A DNA stretch of 64,000 nt from an uncultured Clostridia bacterium (GTDB lineage Bacteria > Bacillota > Clostridia > TANB77 > CAG-508). A model generated the notes under the pieces. That model had not been told where the DNA came from, made no database searches, and worked only from the letters and a program-made list of their open reading frames with translations. Positions within the stretch are counted from its first letter, which is position 1; the number at the start of each line of letters is the position of its first letter. This document shows, one piece after another, positions 897 through 36,040 of the stretch. Made by a program: the position numbers and the translations under genes. The stretch is taken from assembly GCA_944387435.1 (NCBI GenBank), contig CALXEW010000001.1:62001-126000 (forward strand). The letters are read 5' to 3'.

Positions 897-3020
897 TTAA
901 TTCATTATTTGAACATAAGGTTCTGCTGTCATATCTTCTTCAATTGTTTCTACATTCATTCCGAAATATTCTTCCATTATATCTCTTACAACTTCTGCTG
1001 TATAATTTCCATGTCCACCATTTTCTACTATAACTACAATCGCTATTTCTGGATTTTCAAATGGTGCAAATCCTACAAACCAAGCATTAACTTTGTTTCC
1101 AGCCTCCGCTGAACCTGTTTTTCCTCCTACTGTTACATCAAAATCTCTAAATCTAACATATGCTGTACCTGAACTATCTTGTGTAACAGATTCCATACCT
1201 GCAAGCACCGCGTCTATATACTCTTGGTTTATATCAATCTCTTCTACTGTTTCTTCTTCTATTCCTAATTTTTGATTTACAAAGTTTCTAATTTCTTCTT
1301 CTGACACTTCTGATCCATCTGCATTTCTAATAGTTCTTACTATTGTTGGTTGTATTCTATTTCCTCCATTCGCTAATATGCTAATATATCTTGCCATTTG
1401 TACAGGACTAAATGAATTATCATTCTGACCTATAGCTGCTTGTAATGTATCTGCTGCATACCAATTTGGATCATCATTTGCATGTAATTCTGCTTTTGTT
1501 TCTTTACTTGCAACAGAACCTGATGTCTCACTTGGTAACTCAACTCCGGTTTTACTTCCTAAACCAAAATACCTTGCAAACTTAGCCAAAGTATCTATTC
1601 CCATTCTATCTGCTGTTTCATAAAAGAAATAGTTACAAGACCTTTCTATTGCTTGTGATACATTAAGCCATCCATGACCTCTTCTATAATCAGTATAATA
1701 CCAACAAACTGGCTGATAATCCCTATATTTTGTATATCTTCCTGTATCGTTTATTCTTGTATTTAAGTCTATAGCTCCTGATTCTAATCCTGCTATCGCT
1801 GTTACCATTTTAAACGTTGACCCTGGTGAATATGCATTTTGTACAGCCTTATTTACTAGTGGATGTGCTGTATCATTATTATAATTATTCCAATTTTCAG
1901 TACTTATTCCTCCTACAAAGTCAGCTGGATTGTATGTTGGATAACTTGCCATTGCAAGTATTTCACCAGTATTTACATTCATAACAACACAAGCTCCAGC
2001 ATTAGTATCAAATCTTTGTCCGAATCCACCACTTGCTATTTTTTGAATATTTGCTGCTAATGCATCTTCCGTAACTTTTTGAAGGTTAGCATCTATTGTA
2101 AGTACAACGTCAGAACCTGATATTGCTTCTTCTGAAATATATTCTGCTGTTGTTGTTCCATCAACAGCCATATCTATCTGTCTTGTTCCATTTTTCCCTT
2201 TTAAATACTCTTCAAATACATACTCTATACCAGTTTTTCCAATAATATCATTTTGACTATATGTATCTTTTCTTGTTTCGTATTCTTCACTACTTATTTG
2301 TGAAGCATAACCTAAAATATGTGCTGCAAGTGTTCCTGAAGTATATTCTCTTACAGGCTTTACAGAGATATTTATTCCAGCAAATTTGTCTGCACTTTCA
2401 CTAAATTCTGCCACTGCTTCTCTTGGAATATTATCAGCTATTGTAATAGACCTCGTGCTACTATATCCCTCAATAGATATTTGATATCTAATAGCAATTA
2501 TTTTCCTTATTTCCTCAATATTAGTTGTATTTGTTATCTCATACTCCTTCACAAATTCATTAAAAGCCGCCTCTGCACTTATATTTTCGTCTAAGTCATT
2601 TTCTTCTTTCCATTCTGCCAATTCCTCGTCAGATATTGTGAAAGTATATGGATTAATACTAATCGGAAAAGAATCTGGATAAGAAGCTCCATATTTTTCA
2701 AGAACTTGTATCATATTCAAAATAGAAATATTAAGCTGGTTATCATCTATTTTCGTTTGATACATTTCTAATGAAAACTGCATATCAGAACTAACTAGTG
2801 TTGCTCCTGTTCTATCCAAAATATCCCCTCTTGCTGCTTCTAAAGTACTTTCTCTTGTAAGCCTTGTATTCGATTGTTCTCTATATTCTGCACCATGTAC
2901 TATTTGAAGGCTAAATAGTCTGACAATTAATATTATTCCTATAATATAAACAACAACTGTTAACAAATTAAATCTAAGATTTATGTTAGCTTTTTTAGGA
3001 GTTTTATTTCTTCTTATCAA
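897..3020 (-). CDS. mrdA: penicillin-binding protein 2 (elongation transpeptidase)
   Basis: Class B penicillin-binding protein that cross-links peptidoglycan during sidewall elongation with MreBCD and RodA. The 707-residue protein has one N-terminal membrane anchor (about 20-38), a dimerisation/pedestal domain with the ARGDILDR motif (63-70), and a transpeptidase domain with all three catalytic motifs: STFK (Ser401, Lys404), SCN (461-463) and KTG (634-636). The start is TTG at 3020, supported by an AAGAAGG Shine-Dalgarno just upstream. It follows mreD by 28 nt and ends the mre operon at a strong terminator. Length and motifs are normal for the family. Confidence 0.93.
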   Translation of the reverse strand: MIRRNKTPKKANINLRFNLLTVVVYIIGIILIVRLFSLQIVHGAEYREQSNTRLTRESTLEAARGDILDRTGATLVSSDMQFSLEMYQTKIDDNQLNISILNMIQVLEKYGASYPDSFPISINPYTFTISDEELAEWKEENDLDENISAEAAFNEFVKEYEITNTTNIEEIRKIIAIRYQISIEGYSSTRSITIADNIPREAVAEFSESADKFAGINISVKPVREYTSGTLAAHILGYASQISSEEYETRKDTYSQNDIIGKTGIEYVFEEYLKGKNGTRQIDMAVDGTTTAEYISEEAISGSDVVLTIDANLQKVTEDALAANIQKIASGGFGQRFDTNAGACVVMNVNTGEILAMASYPTYNPADFVGGISTENWNNYNNDTAHPLVNKAVQNAYSPGSTFKMVTAIAGLESGAIDLNTRINDTGRYTKYRDYQPVCWYYTDYRRGHGWLNVSQAIERSCNYFFYETADRMGIDTLAKFARYFGLGSKTGVELPSETSGSVASKETKAELHANDDPNWYAADTLQAAIGQNDNSFSPVQMARYISILANGGNRIQPTIVRTIRNADGSEVSEEEIRNFVNQKLGIEEETVEEIDINQEYIDAVLAGMESVTQDSSGTAYVRFRDFDVTVGGKTGSAEAGNKVNAWFVGFAPFENPEIAIVVIVENGGHGNYTAEVVRDIMEEYFGMNVETIEEDMTAEPYVQIMN

Positions 3021-3048
3021 ACTATCACCTTCTTTTTTTTATTACTTT

Positions 3049-19431: not shown

Positions 19432-20307
19432 TTAGATACTCCGTCCTCCTAATATTCCCCCTGCAGAATATCCACTTTTATTATTTATAATATTAGCTCT
19501 ATTATAACAATTTGAAATGCTAGCATTTGAGTAAAAAAGTGTACTTCCCACTATTCCACCAACATCTGTATTTGCACCATTATTTATAATTTTTCCTGAC
19601 ACCGTTAAACCATCTATTACTGCATAATCTTTAATAGCTCCAAAAAATCCTATTCCTTCTCCTGCGGTTCCATTTTCCATATTATTTATATATATATTTG
19701 TTATTTCATGACTATTTCCTAAAAATATTCCAGAAAAGCTATTCGTGGCTAATCTACCTATAGAATTCCAACTTTTATTGTCTCCTTCTGAACAAAATGA
19801 AGACAAATCTATATCGTTTTGTAAAGAATATACTGAACTTGATGAAAAGGTATAATCTACTCCATTTATATTAACAATTTGTTCTGCTCCACTTTCACAT
19901 ACTTCCGCTATTTTAACCAATTGCTCTGCTGTATATATGGGTATAATATCAGTTTTTACTTCTCCTGTTCCTGTATTTATTATATAAGTATTGTCTTTAT
20001 AATATATTACTTTAATAATATTATTACTTATTACACTAGTTTCTGGATACTGTTTTTCCAATTCTTCTTTAATAGCGTTGTTAAAATCTATTGTATCTAA
20101 TGTATCTTCCATTTTGGCTTGTTCTATTGCAAGTTTTATTTCTTCTATATTGCTTGCTTTATCTGTTTCTTCTTTTGCTCTTTGTGCTTGAGTAAGTATT
20201 CCATTCTCTCCTGTAAGCATTGCAATTGATACACTTGCAAGTATTAATAAAACTATAATAGTGATAACAAGTGCTATAAGTGTGATTCCATTTTTATTCT
20301 TTATCAT
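19432..20307 (-). CDS. prepilin-like N-terminal part of a frameshifted GLUG-repeat protein
   Basis: The 291 residues start with a type IV prepilin-like leader: basic MIKNKNG, then a hydrophobic helix (ITLIALVITIIVLL) and ML(T)GENGILTQAQRAKEET. The usual Glu at position +5 after the Gly cleavage site is Ala here. A charged region, a linker, and the first GLUG repeats (VGGIVGSTLFYSNASISNCYN) follow. The frame ends abruptly at 19432 after AGGILGGRSI because of one extra base. The gene is transcribed divergently from an XRE regulator and has a TTGACA-17-TAAAAT promoter. Function is unknown; a pilus-like or cell-surface role is inferred from the leader. Confidence 0.78.
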   Translation of the reverse strand: MIKNKNGITLIALVITIIVLLILASVSIAMLTGENGILTQAQRAKEETDKASNIEEIKLAIEQAKMEDTLDTIDFNNAIKEELEKQYPETSVISNNIIKVIYYKDNTYIINTGTGEVKTDIIPIYTAEQLVKIAEVCESGAEQIVNINGVDYTFSSSSVYSLQNDIDLSSFCSEGDNKSWNSIGRLATNSFSGIFLGNSHEITNIYINNMENGTAGEGIGFFGAIKDYAVIDGLTVSGKIINNGANTDVGGIVGSTLFYSNASISNCYNRANIINNKSGYSAGGILGGRSI

Positions 20308-20410: not shown

Positions 20411-20468
20411 TGTTATTTTTTAAAACTGTCTATATTATGATTATTTTATGAAAAAGAGGTGTATATAT

Positions 20469-20732
20469 ATGAAAAAAGATAATATTAAACCGATTGTTTA
20501 TGAAATACAATATGGAAAAATAATCGTAAAATTAGACGAAATTATGAAAAAATTAGATGTTTCTAATTACGAATTAAATAGTAAAGCAAATATAAAATTT
20601 CAAACAATTCAAAATTTAAGAATTAATAAATCTTCAAGAATTGATTTTGAAGTACTTGCTAAACTTTGTTATTCACTTGATTGTAAAGTAGAAGATATAC
20701 TAGAATATGTACCAAATAATGATACCGAATAA
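20469..20732 (+). CDS. XRE/Cro-type transcriptional regulator
   Basis: An 87-residue single-domain helix-turn-helix protein of the Cro/CI (YozG-like) type: KLDEIMKKLDVSNYELNSKANIKFQTIQNLRINK covers the helix-turn-helix, followed by DFEVLAKLCYSLDCKVEDILEYV, the usual terminal helices. An upstream ATG at 20448 is unlikely because AGAGGTG lies inside those codons, 7 nt before the ATG at 20469. It is divergent from the first GLUG prepilin-like gene, so it probably controls that gene and itself. The same arrangement, with another XRE subfamily, recurs near 30.1 kb. Confidence 0.82.
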   Translation: MKKDNIKPIVYEIQYGKIIVKLDEIMKKLDVSNYELNSKANIKFQTIQNLRINKSSRIDFEVLAKLCYSLDCKVEDILEYVPNNDTE

Positions 20733-20801
20733 TTTATGTTTTTTATATTATAAATCTTTTTGACTTTTATTTGCATTTTATAGATTTAAAAGAAACATAT
20801 A

Positions 20802-20889
20802 AGCAAGGTTTTAAATTAGGCAATTTTGCGTAGGGAAATTAAGGGTAGCTAAATTGCAGGTAAGCGAAGCTTAAATTTAAAAACTTGCT
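20802..20889. other. 88-nt three-way-junction element (structured RNA or cruciform DNA)
   Basis: AGCAAG-G-TTTTAAATT (20802-20817) pairs with AATTTAAAA-A-CTTGCT (20874-20889), a 15-bp stem with one mismatch. Inside are two further hairpins: GCAATTT (20820-20826) with AAATTGC (20851-20857) around a G-rich loop (GTAGGG...GGGTAG), and TAAGC-GAA-GCTTA (20861-20873), whose core GCGAAGC is a known exceptionally stable mini-hairpin. It lies in a gene-free stretch between an XRE gene and virD4, and a terminator hairpin follows on the plus strand. I do not recognise it as a known riboswitch or RNA family. Confidence 0.5.
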
Positions 20890-20910
20890 CCAAATCCCTG
20901 TTATATAGAA

Positions 20911-20945
20911 AAAAGTTAGAAAATAATTAATATTTCCTAACTTTT
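20911..20945. terminator. terminator hairpin after the 88-nt element
   Basis: AAAAGTTAG pairs with CTAACTTTT around an AT-rich 17-nt loop that can extend the stem. T runs lie on both strands. It can end transcription from the XRE/88-nt element side (plus) or from virD4 (minus). Confidence 0.6.
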
Positions 20946-20953
20946 ATTATTTG

Positions 20954-20981
20954 ATGTTTTTTGCCCCGTCCCAGAAAACAT
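20954..20981. repeat. CCGTCC-loop hairpin, copy 1
   Basis: ATGTTTTTT (20954-20962) and AGAAAACAT (20973-20981) form a 9-bp stem with one G-T wobble around the loop GCCCCGTCCC. It touches the virD4 stop codon (20981-20983). The stem and loop core are shared with copies at 32351, 44428 and 56172. Confidence 0.65.
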
Positions 20982-22555
20982 TACTCCTCATCTATTGGTC
21001 CAAATAGTTCATCAAATTTAGCTTCTAACTCTTTTTGCAAATCGTATGTATCTTCTTCTTCCCCTTCTTGAGGTAATATTGGCGCATCATTGAAATCTTC
21101 TAAATCTAGTACACCAACATCTTGTTTTTTAGGTTCTTCTTTTGCCTCTTTTATTTCTTCTATTTTTGGTTCTACTTTTGGTTCTACTTTTTTAATTTCT
21201 GGTTCATCTTCAAATAAATCATCTAAAGATTCTATCTTCAAATCTTGCTTTGGTGCTTGGTCTTTTTCTTCAACATATGGATTATAAGGATTATATTTTC
21301 TCCAAATGCCTCTATCTATTTCACCAATATCATTATGACTAATTTCCATTCTTGCTAGCTCTTTGGCCATTGGATGTTTAAAGTAATAATATTTCTCAGC
21401 TTTAACTGGTTTTATTCCTTTTTCAAAAATAATACATAAATCATTATCTAATCTACGAAGTTCATCTGGAGTCATTAATGCCCTTGCCATAACTTGGTCT
21501 GAGACCGATTTTCCTGTTCTCCAGTTTTGTCTATCTCTATTTATAGAAACACTATCTCTTTCTATTGTTTTTTCTCCTAATGCTTTAGAAAAATACTCAA
21601 CAGTCTTAAATGAGTTACTTCCCAAAAATACATGTGTATCACAGTTACCCATAATTGTTTCATAAGACTTTTCATAAACAGCTTCTAATTGATCCACATT
21701 TTGTAAAATTACACTAAATGATATTCCTCTACTTCTTGATGTTGAAATCTTCTTATCAAAATCTGGTATTTTACCAATATTTGCAAACTCATCCAATATG
21801 AAAAATGTTTGCTCTTTTAATCTACCACCATTTAAATCTGCATAATCATATAATTGTTGTATCATTTGAGAGAAAAATATAGTAAGTAAGAAATCATATG
21901 CAGCATGTGTATCTGAAGATATTACATATACTGCTGTTTTTTTGTTTCCTATTTCCTCAAAGTCTATTGTGTCTGTTGATGTTAGCTCTGCTATTTCTTT
22001 TGAGTCAAATTTTCCTAATTTTGATTGTAACGAACTTAAAATAGAGCTATATGTTTTTTCTGGTGCTATTTCAATAGATTTATAATACATTCTAGCTGGG
22101 TGGTCATATGGAAGTTGTCCCATAAGTTCTGAAAGTAAGTTATTTCCTCCCTTATTGTTTGCTGCTCTTACTAATTCAGCACAACTTGCCAAATTTTGTT
22201 CTTCTTCTGGTCTTGTTGCTATTAAATAATATATTAAAGCTTTTAATAGCATTTCAGCTGAATCATCCCAGAATGGGTCAGAGTTCCCGCCTTCTGATTG
22301 CTGTCCTTTTACAACTGTATTTGCAATTACATCCACATCTAGCTCTGATGAAATGTGCATAAGTGGATTATACCCATCACTATATTGTGGTCTTACTAAG
22401 TTTAATACTTTAATTTCATATCCTTTTGATTTTAAATATCCTGCCGTTCTATCATACAATTCTCCTTTAGGGTCTGTGAATACATATGACCCTAAACATT
22501 GATATGCATTAGGTATTGAATAAGATGCTGACTTACCAGAACCAGAACCGTCCAA
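20981..22555 (-). CDS. VirD4/TraG-like conjugative coupling ATPase, main part (frameshifted)
   Basis: Type IV coupling protein that normally pumps DNA-relaxase complexes into a conjugation channel. The 524-residue part starts artificially at a TTG inside the Walker A motif and continues GSGSGKSASYSIPNAYQ, then FTDPKGELYD, the Walker B region FFILDEFANIGKIPDF, SRSRGISFSVILQN, and an acidic, Lys-rich tail after about 440 (repeated EPKVEPK units). The N-terminal membrane part is in another frame (22533-23015). One extra base in GGACGG (22550) separates them; without it the P-loop reads VVGGSGSGKS. No relaxase or transfer genes are visible nearby. Confidence 0.85.
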   Translation of the reverse strand: MDGSGSGKSASYSIPNAYQCLGSYVFTDPKGELYDRTAGYLKSKGYEIKVLNLVRPQYSDGYNPLMHISSELDVDVIANTVVKGQQSEGGNSDPFWDDSAEMLLKALIYYLIATRPEEEQNLASCAELVRAANNKGGNNLLSELMGQLPYDHPARMYYKSIEIAPEKTYSSILSSLQSKLGKFDSKEIAELTSTDTIDFEEIGNKKTAVYVISSDTHAAYDFLLTIFFSQMIQQLYDYADLNGGRLKEQTFFILDEFANIGKIPDFDKKISTSRSRGISFSVILQNVDQLEAVYEKSYETIMGNCDTHVFLGSNSFKTVEYFSKALGEKTIERDSVSINRDRQNWRTGKSVSDQVMARALMTPDELRRLDNDLCIIFEKGIKPVKAEKYYYFKHPMAKELARMEISHNDIGEIDRGIWRKYNPYNPYVEEKDQAPKQDLKIESLDDLFEDEPEIKKVEPKVEPKIEEIKEAKEEPKKQDVGVLDLEDFNDAPILPQEGEEEDTYDLQKELEAKFDELFGPIDEE

Positions 22556-23015
22556 CTACCAAAACATTTATATTTCCCCTTTTATCAAGTGGTAAATAAT
22601 TATCTTCTGCAAGTATTATTCCTTTATTTTTGCTTAATATTTGATATTGTTCTCCTCTTTGACTCCAGTCACTAGAACCATGTTCTATATCTGAAAACTC
22701 ATTTTTAGGGGCTGATTTTACAAATCCTATAAAGAAAAATACTGTATAAAAAATAGTTACAACTAGTAATGTCGAAATAAAATTACTTACAGCTCCACTT
22801 GTAAACAAAGCACCTAACGTTCCAAACGGATTAGTAATTGACGTTCCAAGAGTTTCTATAAATACGTCCAATTTAAATTCACCATCTAGTCCTGCAACAT
22901 GTGCACTATAACTAAATGGCGAAACAAATACTATGGCAATAACAACCCATAATATTGCATATATTATGAAGTTTTTTCTATTTCTTTTAATAGCTCCTTC
23001 TATTTTATAATTCAT
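22533..23015 (-). CDS. VirD4-like coupling protein, membrane N-terminal part (frameshifted)
   Basis: The 160 residues contain two membrane segments (about 17-36 and 79-99) separated by an extracytoplasmic loop. A cytoplasmic stretch then includes HGSSDWSQRGEQY and LPLDKRGNINVLVVG, which leads into the Walker A motif. The reading then fails (RFWFW, stop) because of a single-base insertion. The arrangement matches the CD1115-type VirD4-like proteins of Firmicutes integrative elements. Together with the downstream frame it would give one protein of about 676 residues. Start is ATG at 23015. Confidence 0.82.
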   Translation of the reverse strand: MNYKIEGAIKRNRKNFIIYAILWVVIAIVFVSPFSYSAHVAGLDGEFKLDVFIETLGTSITNPFGTLGALFTSGAVSNFISTLLVVTIFYTVFFFIGFVKSAPKNEFSDIEHGSSDWSQRGEQYQILSKNKGIILAEDNYLPLDKRGNINVLVVGRFWFW

Positions 23016-35993: not shown

Positions 35994-36033
35994 GACGTTT
36001 CATTTTGCACATTTTTATGCAAATAGAAACGTC
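35994..36033 (-). terminator. long hairpin/terminator downstream of ypeB
   Basis: GACGTTTC pairs with GAAACGTC, and the interior TTTTGCA pairs with TGCAAA, giving an extended hairpin with TTTATT beyond it on the minus strand. It lies just after the ypeB stop codon. Confidence 0.6.
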
Positions 36034-36040
36034 CCTGTTG

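Follow-up and report, generated by a model that had tools for sequence, protein, structure and literature searches.

A folded element of about 105 bp in the genome of an uncultured Clostridia bacterium was found to be one copy of a dispersed family with a conserved fold. The evidence for a conserved structural element is very strong. In this family the stems and the pseudoknot covary, stems P1 and P2 pair almost exclusively by Watson-Crick pairs, the orientation is opposed to the local GC skew, some copies are carried on mobile DNA, and copies at orthologous sites are conserved above neutral expectation. Folded DNA is a likelier working form of the conserved structure than an ordinary small RNA, and the reading that we favour, with somewhat less than even confidence, is that of a polar folded-DNA element which is carried by mobile DNA and held at fixed sites. 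The original prediction, which proposed from a single copy either an unrecognised small RNA or riboswitch-like element or a folded DNA site used by a mobile element, was partly supported in its interpretation.

One copy lies in the window, the whole 64-kb stretch of DNA that was analysed, where covariance model R1, which had this copy among the 26 used to build it, gave a single match among those listed (20799-20901). The predicted 88-nt three-way junction at 20802-20889 was confirmed as the minimum free energy (MFE) structure of the RNA (-21.6 kcal/mol, z -2.45, with 2 of 200 shuffles equally good), at a low ensemble frequency (0.026) and with a different centroid structure. DNA parameters likewise yielded the three-way junction for either strand, with energies of -19.2 and -15.6 kcal/mol and z-scores of -5.3 and -5.0 (0 of 200 shuffles), better than the z-score as RNA. 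The proposed 15-bp closing stem corresponds to P1, which has 16 positions, 15 of them paired in this copy (G20808 faces A20883), and the proposed G-rich loop, GTAGGGAAATTAAGGGTA, is real and is the best-conserved unpaired part of the family. The 88-nt extent was correct for the junction but too short for the element, which consists of the three-way junction and a tail, CAAATCCCT, whose bases pair with those of the G-rich loop. The stable GCGAAGC turn is present in P3 of this copy but is not a family trait, since it occurs in 41 of the 118 copies. What had been taken for a terminator hairpin is an inverted repeat rich in A+T (20911-20919 with 20937-20945), and a terminator scan gave no call. 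The 248-bp gene-free stretch (20733-20980) was correct, and the XRE and conjugation genes on its two sides were borne out by Pfam matches. The parts of the element and its neighbours are as follows.

20799..20901, + strand: whole element, about 105 nt; covariance model R1, 109.0 bits, E 2.8e-20, model positions 1-104
20802..20817, + strand: P1 5' arm, 16 positions facing 20874-20889; mismatch 20808/20883; 16/16 pairs covary in the family
20819..20829, + strand: P2 5' arm, facing 20848-20858; 9/11 paired here; 11/11 pairs covary in the family
20830..20847, + strand: P2 loop, GTAGGGAAATTAAGGGTA; hardly any variation in its GUAGGG and AAGGGUA columns across 103 rows
20831..20836, + strand: pseudoknot strand 1 (TAGGGA, in the P2 loop), facing 20895-20900
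20848..20858, + strand: P2 3' arm, pairing with the P2 5' arm
20861..20873, + strand: P3 hairpin TAAGC-GAA-GCTTA, 5/5 paired; contains the GCGAAGC turn; loop not conserved
20874..20889, + strand: P1 3' arm, pairing with the P1 5' arm
20890..20900, + strand: tail, CCAAATCCCTG; TCCCTG (20895-20900) is pseudoknot strand 2; CCCT nearly invariant
20911..20945, no strand assigned: A+T-rich inverted repeat, placed after the tail and before the conjugation gene; may be a bidirectional terminator, absent from the terminator-scan calls
20448..20732, + strand: upstream gene, Cro/C1-type HTH (PF13443, E 2.1e-15)
20981..22555, - strand: convergent gene, type IV coupling protein, VirD4/TraG (PF02534, E 1.9e-78; PF12696, E 2.2e-38)

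The coupling-protein gene was found to span two overlapping frames within 20981-23015, namely 20981-22555, which matches PF02534 from profile position 52, and 22533-23015, for which no Pfam match was obtained; the gene is either broken or split by an assembly error. Genes with a pilin-like N-terminus (GITLIALVITI.ILLILA.VSIAMLTG.NGILT.AQ) recur beside copies of the element, at 19432-20307 of the window (no Pfam match), 1-1428 of L040 and 7661-9337 of L054. As for a guide RNA of the OMEGA/TnpB type, no TnpB gene lies beside the window copy; at L049 a TnpB-like N-terminal piece was seen by eye upstream of the element.

The fold was examined in two alignments. Alignment A1 comprised 26 copies from four genomes, aligned by MAFFT with no structural guide; with a structure drawn by hand from this alignment, 95.8% of the cells paired and double changes were present in 21 of the 39 pairs, and RNAalifold recovered P1, P2, and P3 unaided. 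In alignment A4 (103 copies, 98 distinct), which is fitted to the model and hence biased towards it, whereas A1 is unfitted, 97.4% of 3791 cells were standard pairs and 35 of the 39 pairs had double changes; when the partners were shifted by one to three columns, pairing fell to 36.8-54.0%, and 0 of 500 shuffles matched the observed values. Compensatory changes ran through all 27 P1 and P2 pairs of A4, and the predicted fold thus withstood comparison with its homologs. The pairing between loop and tail joins UAGGGA to UCCCU(G/A), with double changes at 3 of 7 pairs in A4, while columns 36-38 vary never or hardly. Compensated variants of this pseudoknot included (i) GGGUAC with GUACCC in L080-L084; (ii) GGGAAC with GUUCCC in L083; (iii) AGGGGA with UCCCCU in L055, L201, and L203; (iv) GAAGGGAA with UUCCCUUC in L192; and (v) GUGGGGA with UCCCCAU in L041. 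Of 97 rows, 19 lack the outermost pair (column 34 with 146) and 40 lack the innermost (40 with 140), so that the core of the pseudoknot is taken to be five pairs. Among the unpaired bases, variation is nearly absent from the junction A, from the loop CGUAGGGAA...AAGGGUAG, from the GG that precedes P3, and from CCCU. In a second lineage, about 128 nt long, P3 is longer and the stem sequences are unrelated, yet the loop and CCCU tail are unchanged.

The own genome of the window (G000) was found to carry nine copies, a count reproduced with covariance models, and strong copies were detected in three more genomes of the genus among 142 relatives searched. Model R1 located the element in 21 of 385 genomes of the order; model R2 located it in 23 of 194 genomes of the genus, with 1 to 18 copies each, and in two genomes of a class sample of 341, both belonging to the order of the window. 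Eleven of the 23 carriers in the genus have one or two copies and G411 has the most with 18, where copy numbers from scans of more than 40 genomes are lower bounds because these scans used stricter filters and scored the best 6-20 candidates per genome. Such several covarying copies per genome, 9 in G000 and 18 in G411, are what a dispersed structured repeat should show. A degenerate pattern run against a genome collection of 84,980 species returned 81 stretches; the 80 listed were all from metagenome-assembled genomes (MAGs) labelled Clostridia, Clostridium, Clostridiaceae, Oscillospiraceae (L143), or Ca. Equimonas (L165), and in a model check of these listed stretches, which left out L181, L143 matched and L165 did not. 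No match was found in viral contigs with this one pattern, in a phage collection with a long-P3 copy as the sole query, or in a plasmid collection of 72,556 records. Altogether 207 model matches were obtained, of which 37 were antisense echoes of the same copies and were removed, leaving 170 matches and 118 unique copies. That the element is unrecognised held up: Rfam 15 scans of the window and six variant loci gave tRNA and SRP RNA only and rule out a known RNA family, with RsaE as the best sub-threshold match at the element (24.2 bits against a gathering threshold of 79), and a literature search, for which most subscription papers were out of reach, yielded no description of this element. 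To our knowledge, it bears no likeness to the consensus sequences of self-cleaving ribozymes.

A helix acting as RNA would be expected to pass through G-U pairs, as SRP RNA does, and the scarcity of these pairs in P1 and P2 leans towards DNA. In A4, 2587 of the 2629 P1 and P2 cells were Watson-Crick, 15 were G-U (0.6%) and 6 were A-C, compared with 90/900 G-U (10.0%) and no A-C for SRP RNA from 30 genomes of the genus (best 30 of 51 matches, structure from RNAalifold) and 25/275 G-U (9.1%) for 13 tRNAs from the loci. Counting against DNA, however, G-U pairs occupied 85 of the 3791 cells (2.2%) when all 39 pairs were considered, and 51 of these fell at the outermost pseudoknot pair, where 51 of 97 rows have U-G and 25 have U-A; provided that this pair is real, + strand RNA accounts for its U-G state better than DNA does. 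In P3, 17 of 483 cells were G-U, 11 of them in one visibly misaligned column. Within P1 and P2 the excess of G-U over A-C, 15 to 6 (p 0.08) or 11 to 6 in distinct contexts (p 0.33), was not significant and leans slightly in the RNA direction.

Such pairs would be expected of a structured RNA family made from the + strand, by read-through or as part of 3' UTRs, whose loop and tail, common to the sibling copies, would bind a protein or RNA target. Also in line with it, the element begins at or a few bases past the stop codon, on the coding strand, of the ISNCY transposase, an ISLre2 remnant, and one RHH gene in L307, and copies so placed would be transcribed, which counts against the DNA reading; in addition, one lineage (L088, L090, L101, L121, L122, L145, and L150) was seen by eye to have a TATAAT box, along with a terminator-like hairpin, immediately before the element. 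We nonetheless regard this RNA family as a doubtful, if serious, possibility, given both the G-U scarcity and the promoter analysis. No conserved promoter was seen, and TATAAT and TTGACA matches had no clear position; the sole positional exception was a TATAAG formed by the element's own first bases (32/84). The 60 nt upstream are less conserved than the element in 6 of 7 ortholog groups (median identity 0.65-0.77, or 0.93 in the seventh, ky88, against 0.82-0.96 for the elements). At the window copy, the number of promoter-like sites did not exceed chance (4 versus 5.7). Likewise, no conserved terminator of the element was seen by eye, and the conserved promoter and terminator of its own that would mark a small RNA gene were thus not found.

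Polarity provided a further argument. The element-bearing strand had a negative GC skew in 89 of the 94 loci of at least 4 kb, a count that leaves out 24 of the 118 copies on stretches shorter than 4 kb, and it is thus opposed to the local leading strand, where replication direction was deduced from GC skew and coding bias with origins unmapped and the window is mostly strongly skewed. This orientation also speaks against + strand RNA, and a discrete small RNA, one of the possibilities first raised, is weakened by it together with the missing conserved promoter and the few G-U pairs of P1 and P2. Among copies between convergent genes, where neither neighbour sets the direction, the skew was negative in 20 of 21. 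When loci were merged, 21 of 22 evaluable standard groups were opposed to the skew (p 1e-5) and the long-P3 groups stood 1 to 1, with 56 copies chained into one group and 10 of the 34 groups undetermined. The five positive-skew loci were L123, L125, L149, L155, and L159. As a polarity control, the REP repeats of the own genome gave 12/23 and are not polar. The copy at the polC locus has the same fold on both strands (-24.9 and -23.6 kcal/mol), and since both strands are able to fold, polarity should rest on the loop and tail. Overall, the evidence on the molecule is mixed and leans towards DNA; this lean rests on the scarcity of wobble pairs in the long stems, on the GC-skew polarity, and on nothing beyond about 105 bp being seen conserved.

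Orientation was also related to neighbouring genes, taken as plain open reading frames. A downstream frame was present within 600 bp of 112 of the 118 unique copies and was convergent in 93 of the 112; the facing gene ends a median of 55 nt from the element (76/93 within 20-95 nt), and tandem neighbours were antisense to the element 50 times and sense 9 times. A riboswitch-like role, as had been suggested, found no support, as there is no consistent downstream gene and the tail faces differing, convergent genes in those 93 loci. Opposition to replication and opposition to the facing gene are largely confounded, with few discordant loci, some of them orthologous. The spacing of the facing genes would suit a transcription terminator or 3'-end stabiliser that serves these genes as - strand RNA, as would the A-rich tract upstream of P1, which on the - strand is a U-rich tract after the stem. 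We judge this very improbable because (i) the U-rich part peaks 7-9 nt past the stem; (ii) - strand G-U, equal to + strand A-C, is rarer than the reverse; (iii) the next frame is co-directional with the element in the ky88 group, in L091, and mostly in the long-P3 lineage; and (iv) in ISNCY the facing frame lies outside the end of the transposon.

Some copies were found on mobile elements. The element lies at the stop codon of an ISNCY transposase (NF033594, E 1.4e-104) in L219/L084, L241/L081, and L238/L082, and in L080 the last codons of this transposase are visible at the contig edge before the element. An ISLre2 remnant precedes it in L091, and L307 carries two copies beside RHH genes, one at each end of a region that contains a tyrosine integrase. 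Association with a transposase or integrase was thus observed at L080 (last codons), L081, L082, L084, L091, and L307, and copies beside conjugation, RHH/XRE, or integrase genes occur in the window, L085-L090, and L307; most copies have no adjoining transposase or integrase gene, as far as their partly annotated neighbours show. The two units of RHH gene and element in L307 (2765-3259 and 16797-17137) lie 14 kb apart, and each is followed by similar sequence that by eye forms candidate attachment sites.

The element is not an intrinsic part of ISNCY: among 30 transposase-relative loci the model finds it only in L219, L238, and L241, and of the 23 loci in which the transposase 3' end is readable two (L219 and L238) have it. 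Weak matches were limited to two without the loop in L229 and one at E 0.19 in L224. The sister insertion sequences L220, L230, and L233, which are the closest relatives, retain the site without the element, their stop codon being followed by a terminator-like hairpin. In L231, a more distant relative, TTTATGCCGAGAAAACT and then a long inverted repeat lie at about the corresponding position downstream of the transposase stop codon; this sequence presumably recalls the RS_B box of ssoA.

Copies were also found to travel with REP-like repeats. Of the 15 copies examined among the 18 of G411, eight have one common REP-like repeat about 20 nt beyond the tail, five of these eight share a leader of about 110 nt that starts at the inverted repeat, and three further copies have a different inverted pair. 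L185 holds inverted copies 350 bp apart (2474-2577 on the - strand and 2927-3030 on the + strand), each with its own REP-like repeat, and its + copy (= L123) is among the five with positive GC skew. A separate REP-like repeat (GATGTGTCCCNAA - hairpin - GRAACGTCCC) occurs in 28 copies in the own genome at up to one mismatch (reversed control, 3); in inverted orientation it flanks a Y1_Tnp (PF01797) match at C2:21340-21672 (G000:C2:20907-21856, L279), and one REP half is at 36026-36035 of the window. The element was rejected as a part of this repeat, since REP copies exist with no element beside them and lack polarity in the own genome. Y1_Tnp genes were present in all four carriers examined (G000, G005, G028, and G076), and Y1 transposases were present in 117 of 142 relatives regardless of the element; PF01797, the sole candidate tried for a single gene tied to the element, therefore does not discriminate, and no protein partner was found.

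The shared inverted-REP cassettes of G411, with their near-identical copies, and the Y1_Tnp genes of the four carriers could be accounted for by a purely selfish MITE- or REPIN-like repeat, mobilised in single-stranded form by a Y1 (HUH) transposase and folded only as a transposition signal. Strand polarity would fit as well, IS608 and ISDra2 being described in the available text of PMC6006769 as using the lagging-strand template. We consider such a repeat unlikely, as no transposase gene was found between the paired copies of L183 and L185, the accompanying REPs show no polarity in the own genome, and orthologous copies are held above neutral sites, which is unexpected for a dead transposon. 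Of the roles first raised, a folded DNA site of a mobile element suits the data best, in part: it applies to some copies, but most of those seen are chromosomal, kept in place, and not at integration junctions.

Retention was measured against fourfold sites of the facing gene. The element was more identical than these sites in 161 of 163 usable ortholog pairs from 16 groups (pairs are not independent, and 7 of 170 were dropped for too few sites), and in 84 of 86 pairs of seven hand-picked groups. Ten distinct orthologs of the own copy at the 3' end of polC share 95-99% identity with it, against 61-86% for the fourfold sites of the polC end. The unpaired core had a median identity of 0.88-1.00 in six ortholog groups. 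Conservation of loop, junction, and tail bases, unpaired as they are, also excludes template-switch palindrome repair as the sole source of covariation. Median identity was 0.824 between loci versus 0.908 within loci; as copies are alike across loci too, conversion between copies could contribute to the conservation. Presence at a site is not universal: among the 30 nearest genomes eight have the element at polC and several others have REP only, while in G409 it is absent and an 18-bp gap separates the genes.

Repeats of the ERIC and bcr1 type are, like the element, roughly 100-150 bp, intergenic, dispersed, foldable, and possibly transcribed, with a different structure and different hosts. 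REP/REPIN repeats, GTAG- or CGTC-tagged palindromes, are small intergenic repeats linked to Y1 transposases in the available text of PMC3733652 and PMC6006769. The element resembles them in the GTAG of its loop and in travelling with REP-like repeats; however, its GTAG lies inside the P2 loop and not at the foot of a hairpin, it is about 105 nt long with three arms and tail-loop pairing rather than a palindrome of 20-40 bp tagged at one end, and the REPs next to it are a distinct, non-polar repeat. The mobile/repeat sequence candidates (MRSC) that emerged from screening 50 bacterial genomes are likewise multi-copy, with covarying structure, and sometimes beside transposases, and their authors allow the structure to matter as DNA (PMC11109978, available text). 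The one motif compared, the described example MRSC-65-2 (one beside 249 others in that study), consists of a single long stem with >20,000 representatives in diverse phyla (PMC11109978, available text), whereas the element is a polar three-way junction with a pseudoknot, held at fixed sites and found in one Clostridia order in the samples searched. The single-strand origins (sso) found on RCR plasmids and on ICEs, for example sso1 of ICEBs1, are orientation-specific folded DNA with three stem-loops on a conjugative element, and for sso structure is reported to be important besides or instead of sequence (PMC4595007, available text); the likeness is one of description, and unlike sso most copies of the element are chromosomal. 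STAXI shares a pseudoknot near DNA-handling genes, for which a single-stranded DNA form has been considered, but differs in that its pseudoknot stands in two or three tandem repeats, often with UUCG tetraloops (PMC2864571, available text).

Under the polar folded-DNA reading, the element would act strand-specifically when replication or conjugative transfer exposes one strand, and it would probably be the target of a protein recognising the invariant loop and tail, in principle comparable to single-strand origins or to the folded ends of single-strand (HUH) transposases. It may have spread by hitch-hiking on mobile elements, followed by retention at particular chromosomal sites. In its fullest form, which we put forward as rather improbable, this would be a new polar chromosomal DNA element with a three-armed pseudoknotted single-strand fold, directed against replication, spread by mobile DNA, selected at about ten sites per genome, and read by a host protein, either at the replication fork or on single-stranded DNA that has been transferred. 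Intergenic structures that covary are by routine classed as RNA, and this family leans to DNA instead; two inexpensive tests, wobble frequency relative to SRP RNA of the same genus and GC-skew polarity, are applicable to other orphan 'RNA' motifs. If the DNA reading is true, folded single-stranded sites would also be domesticated and selected on the chromosome, not just on mobile elements.
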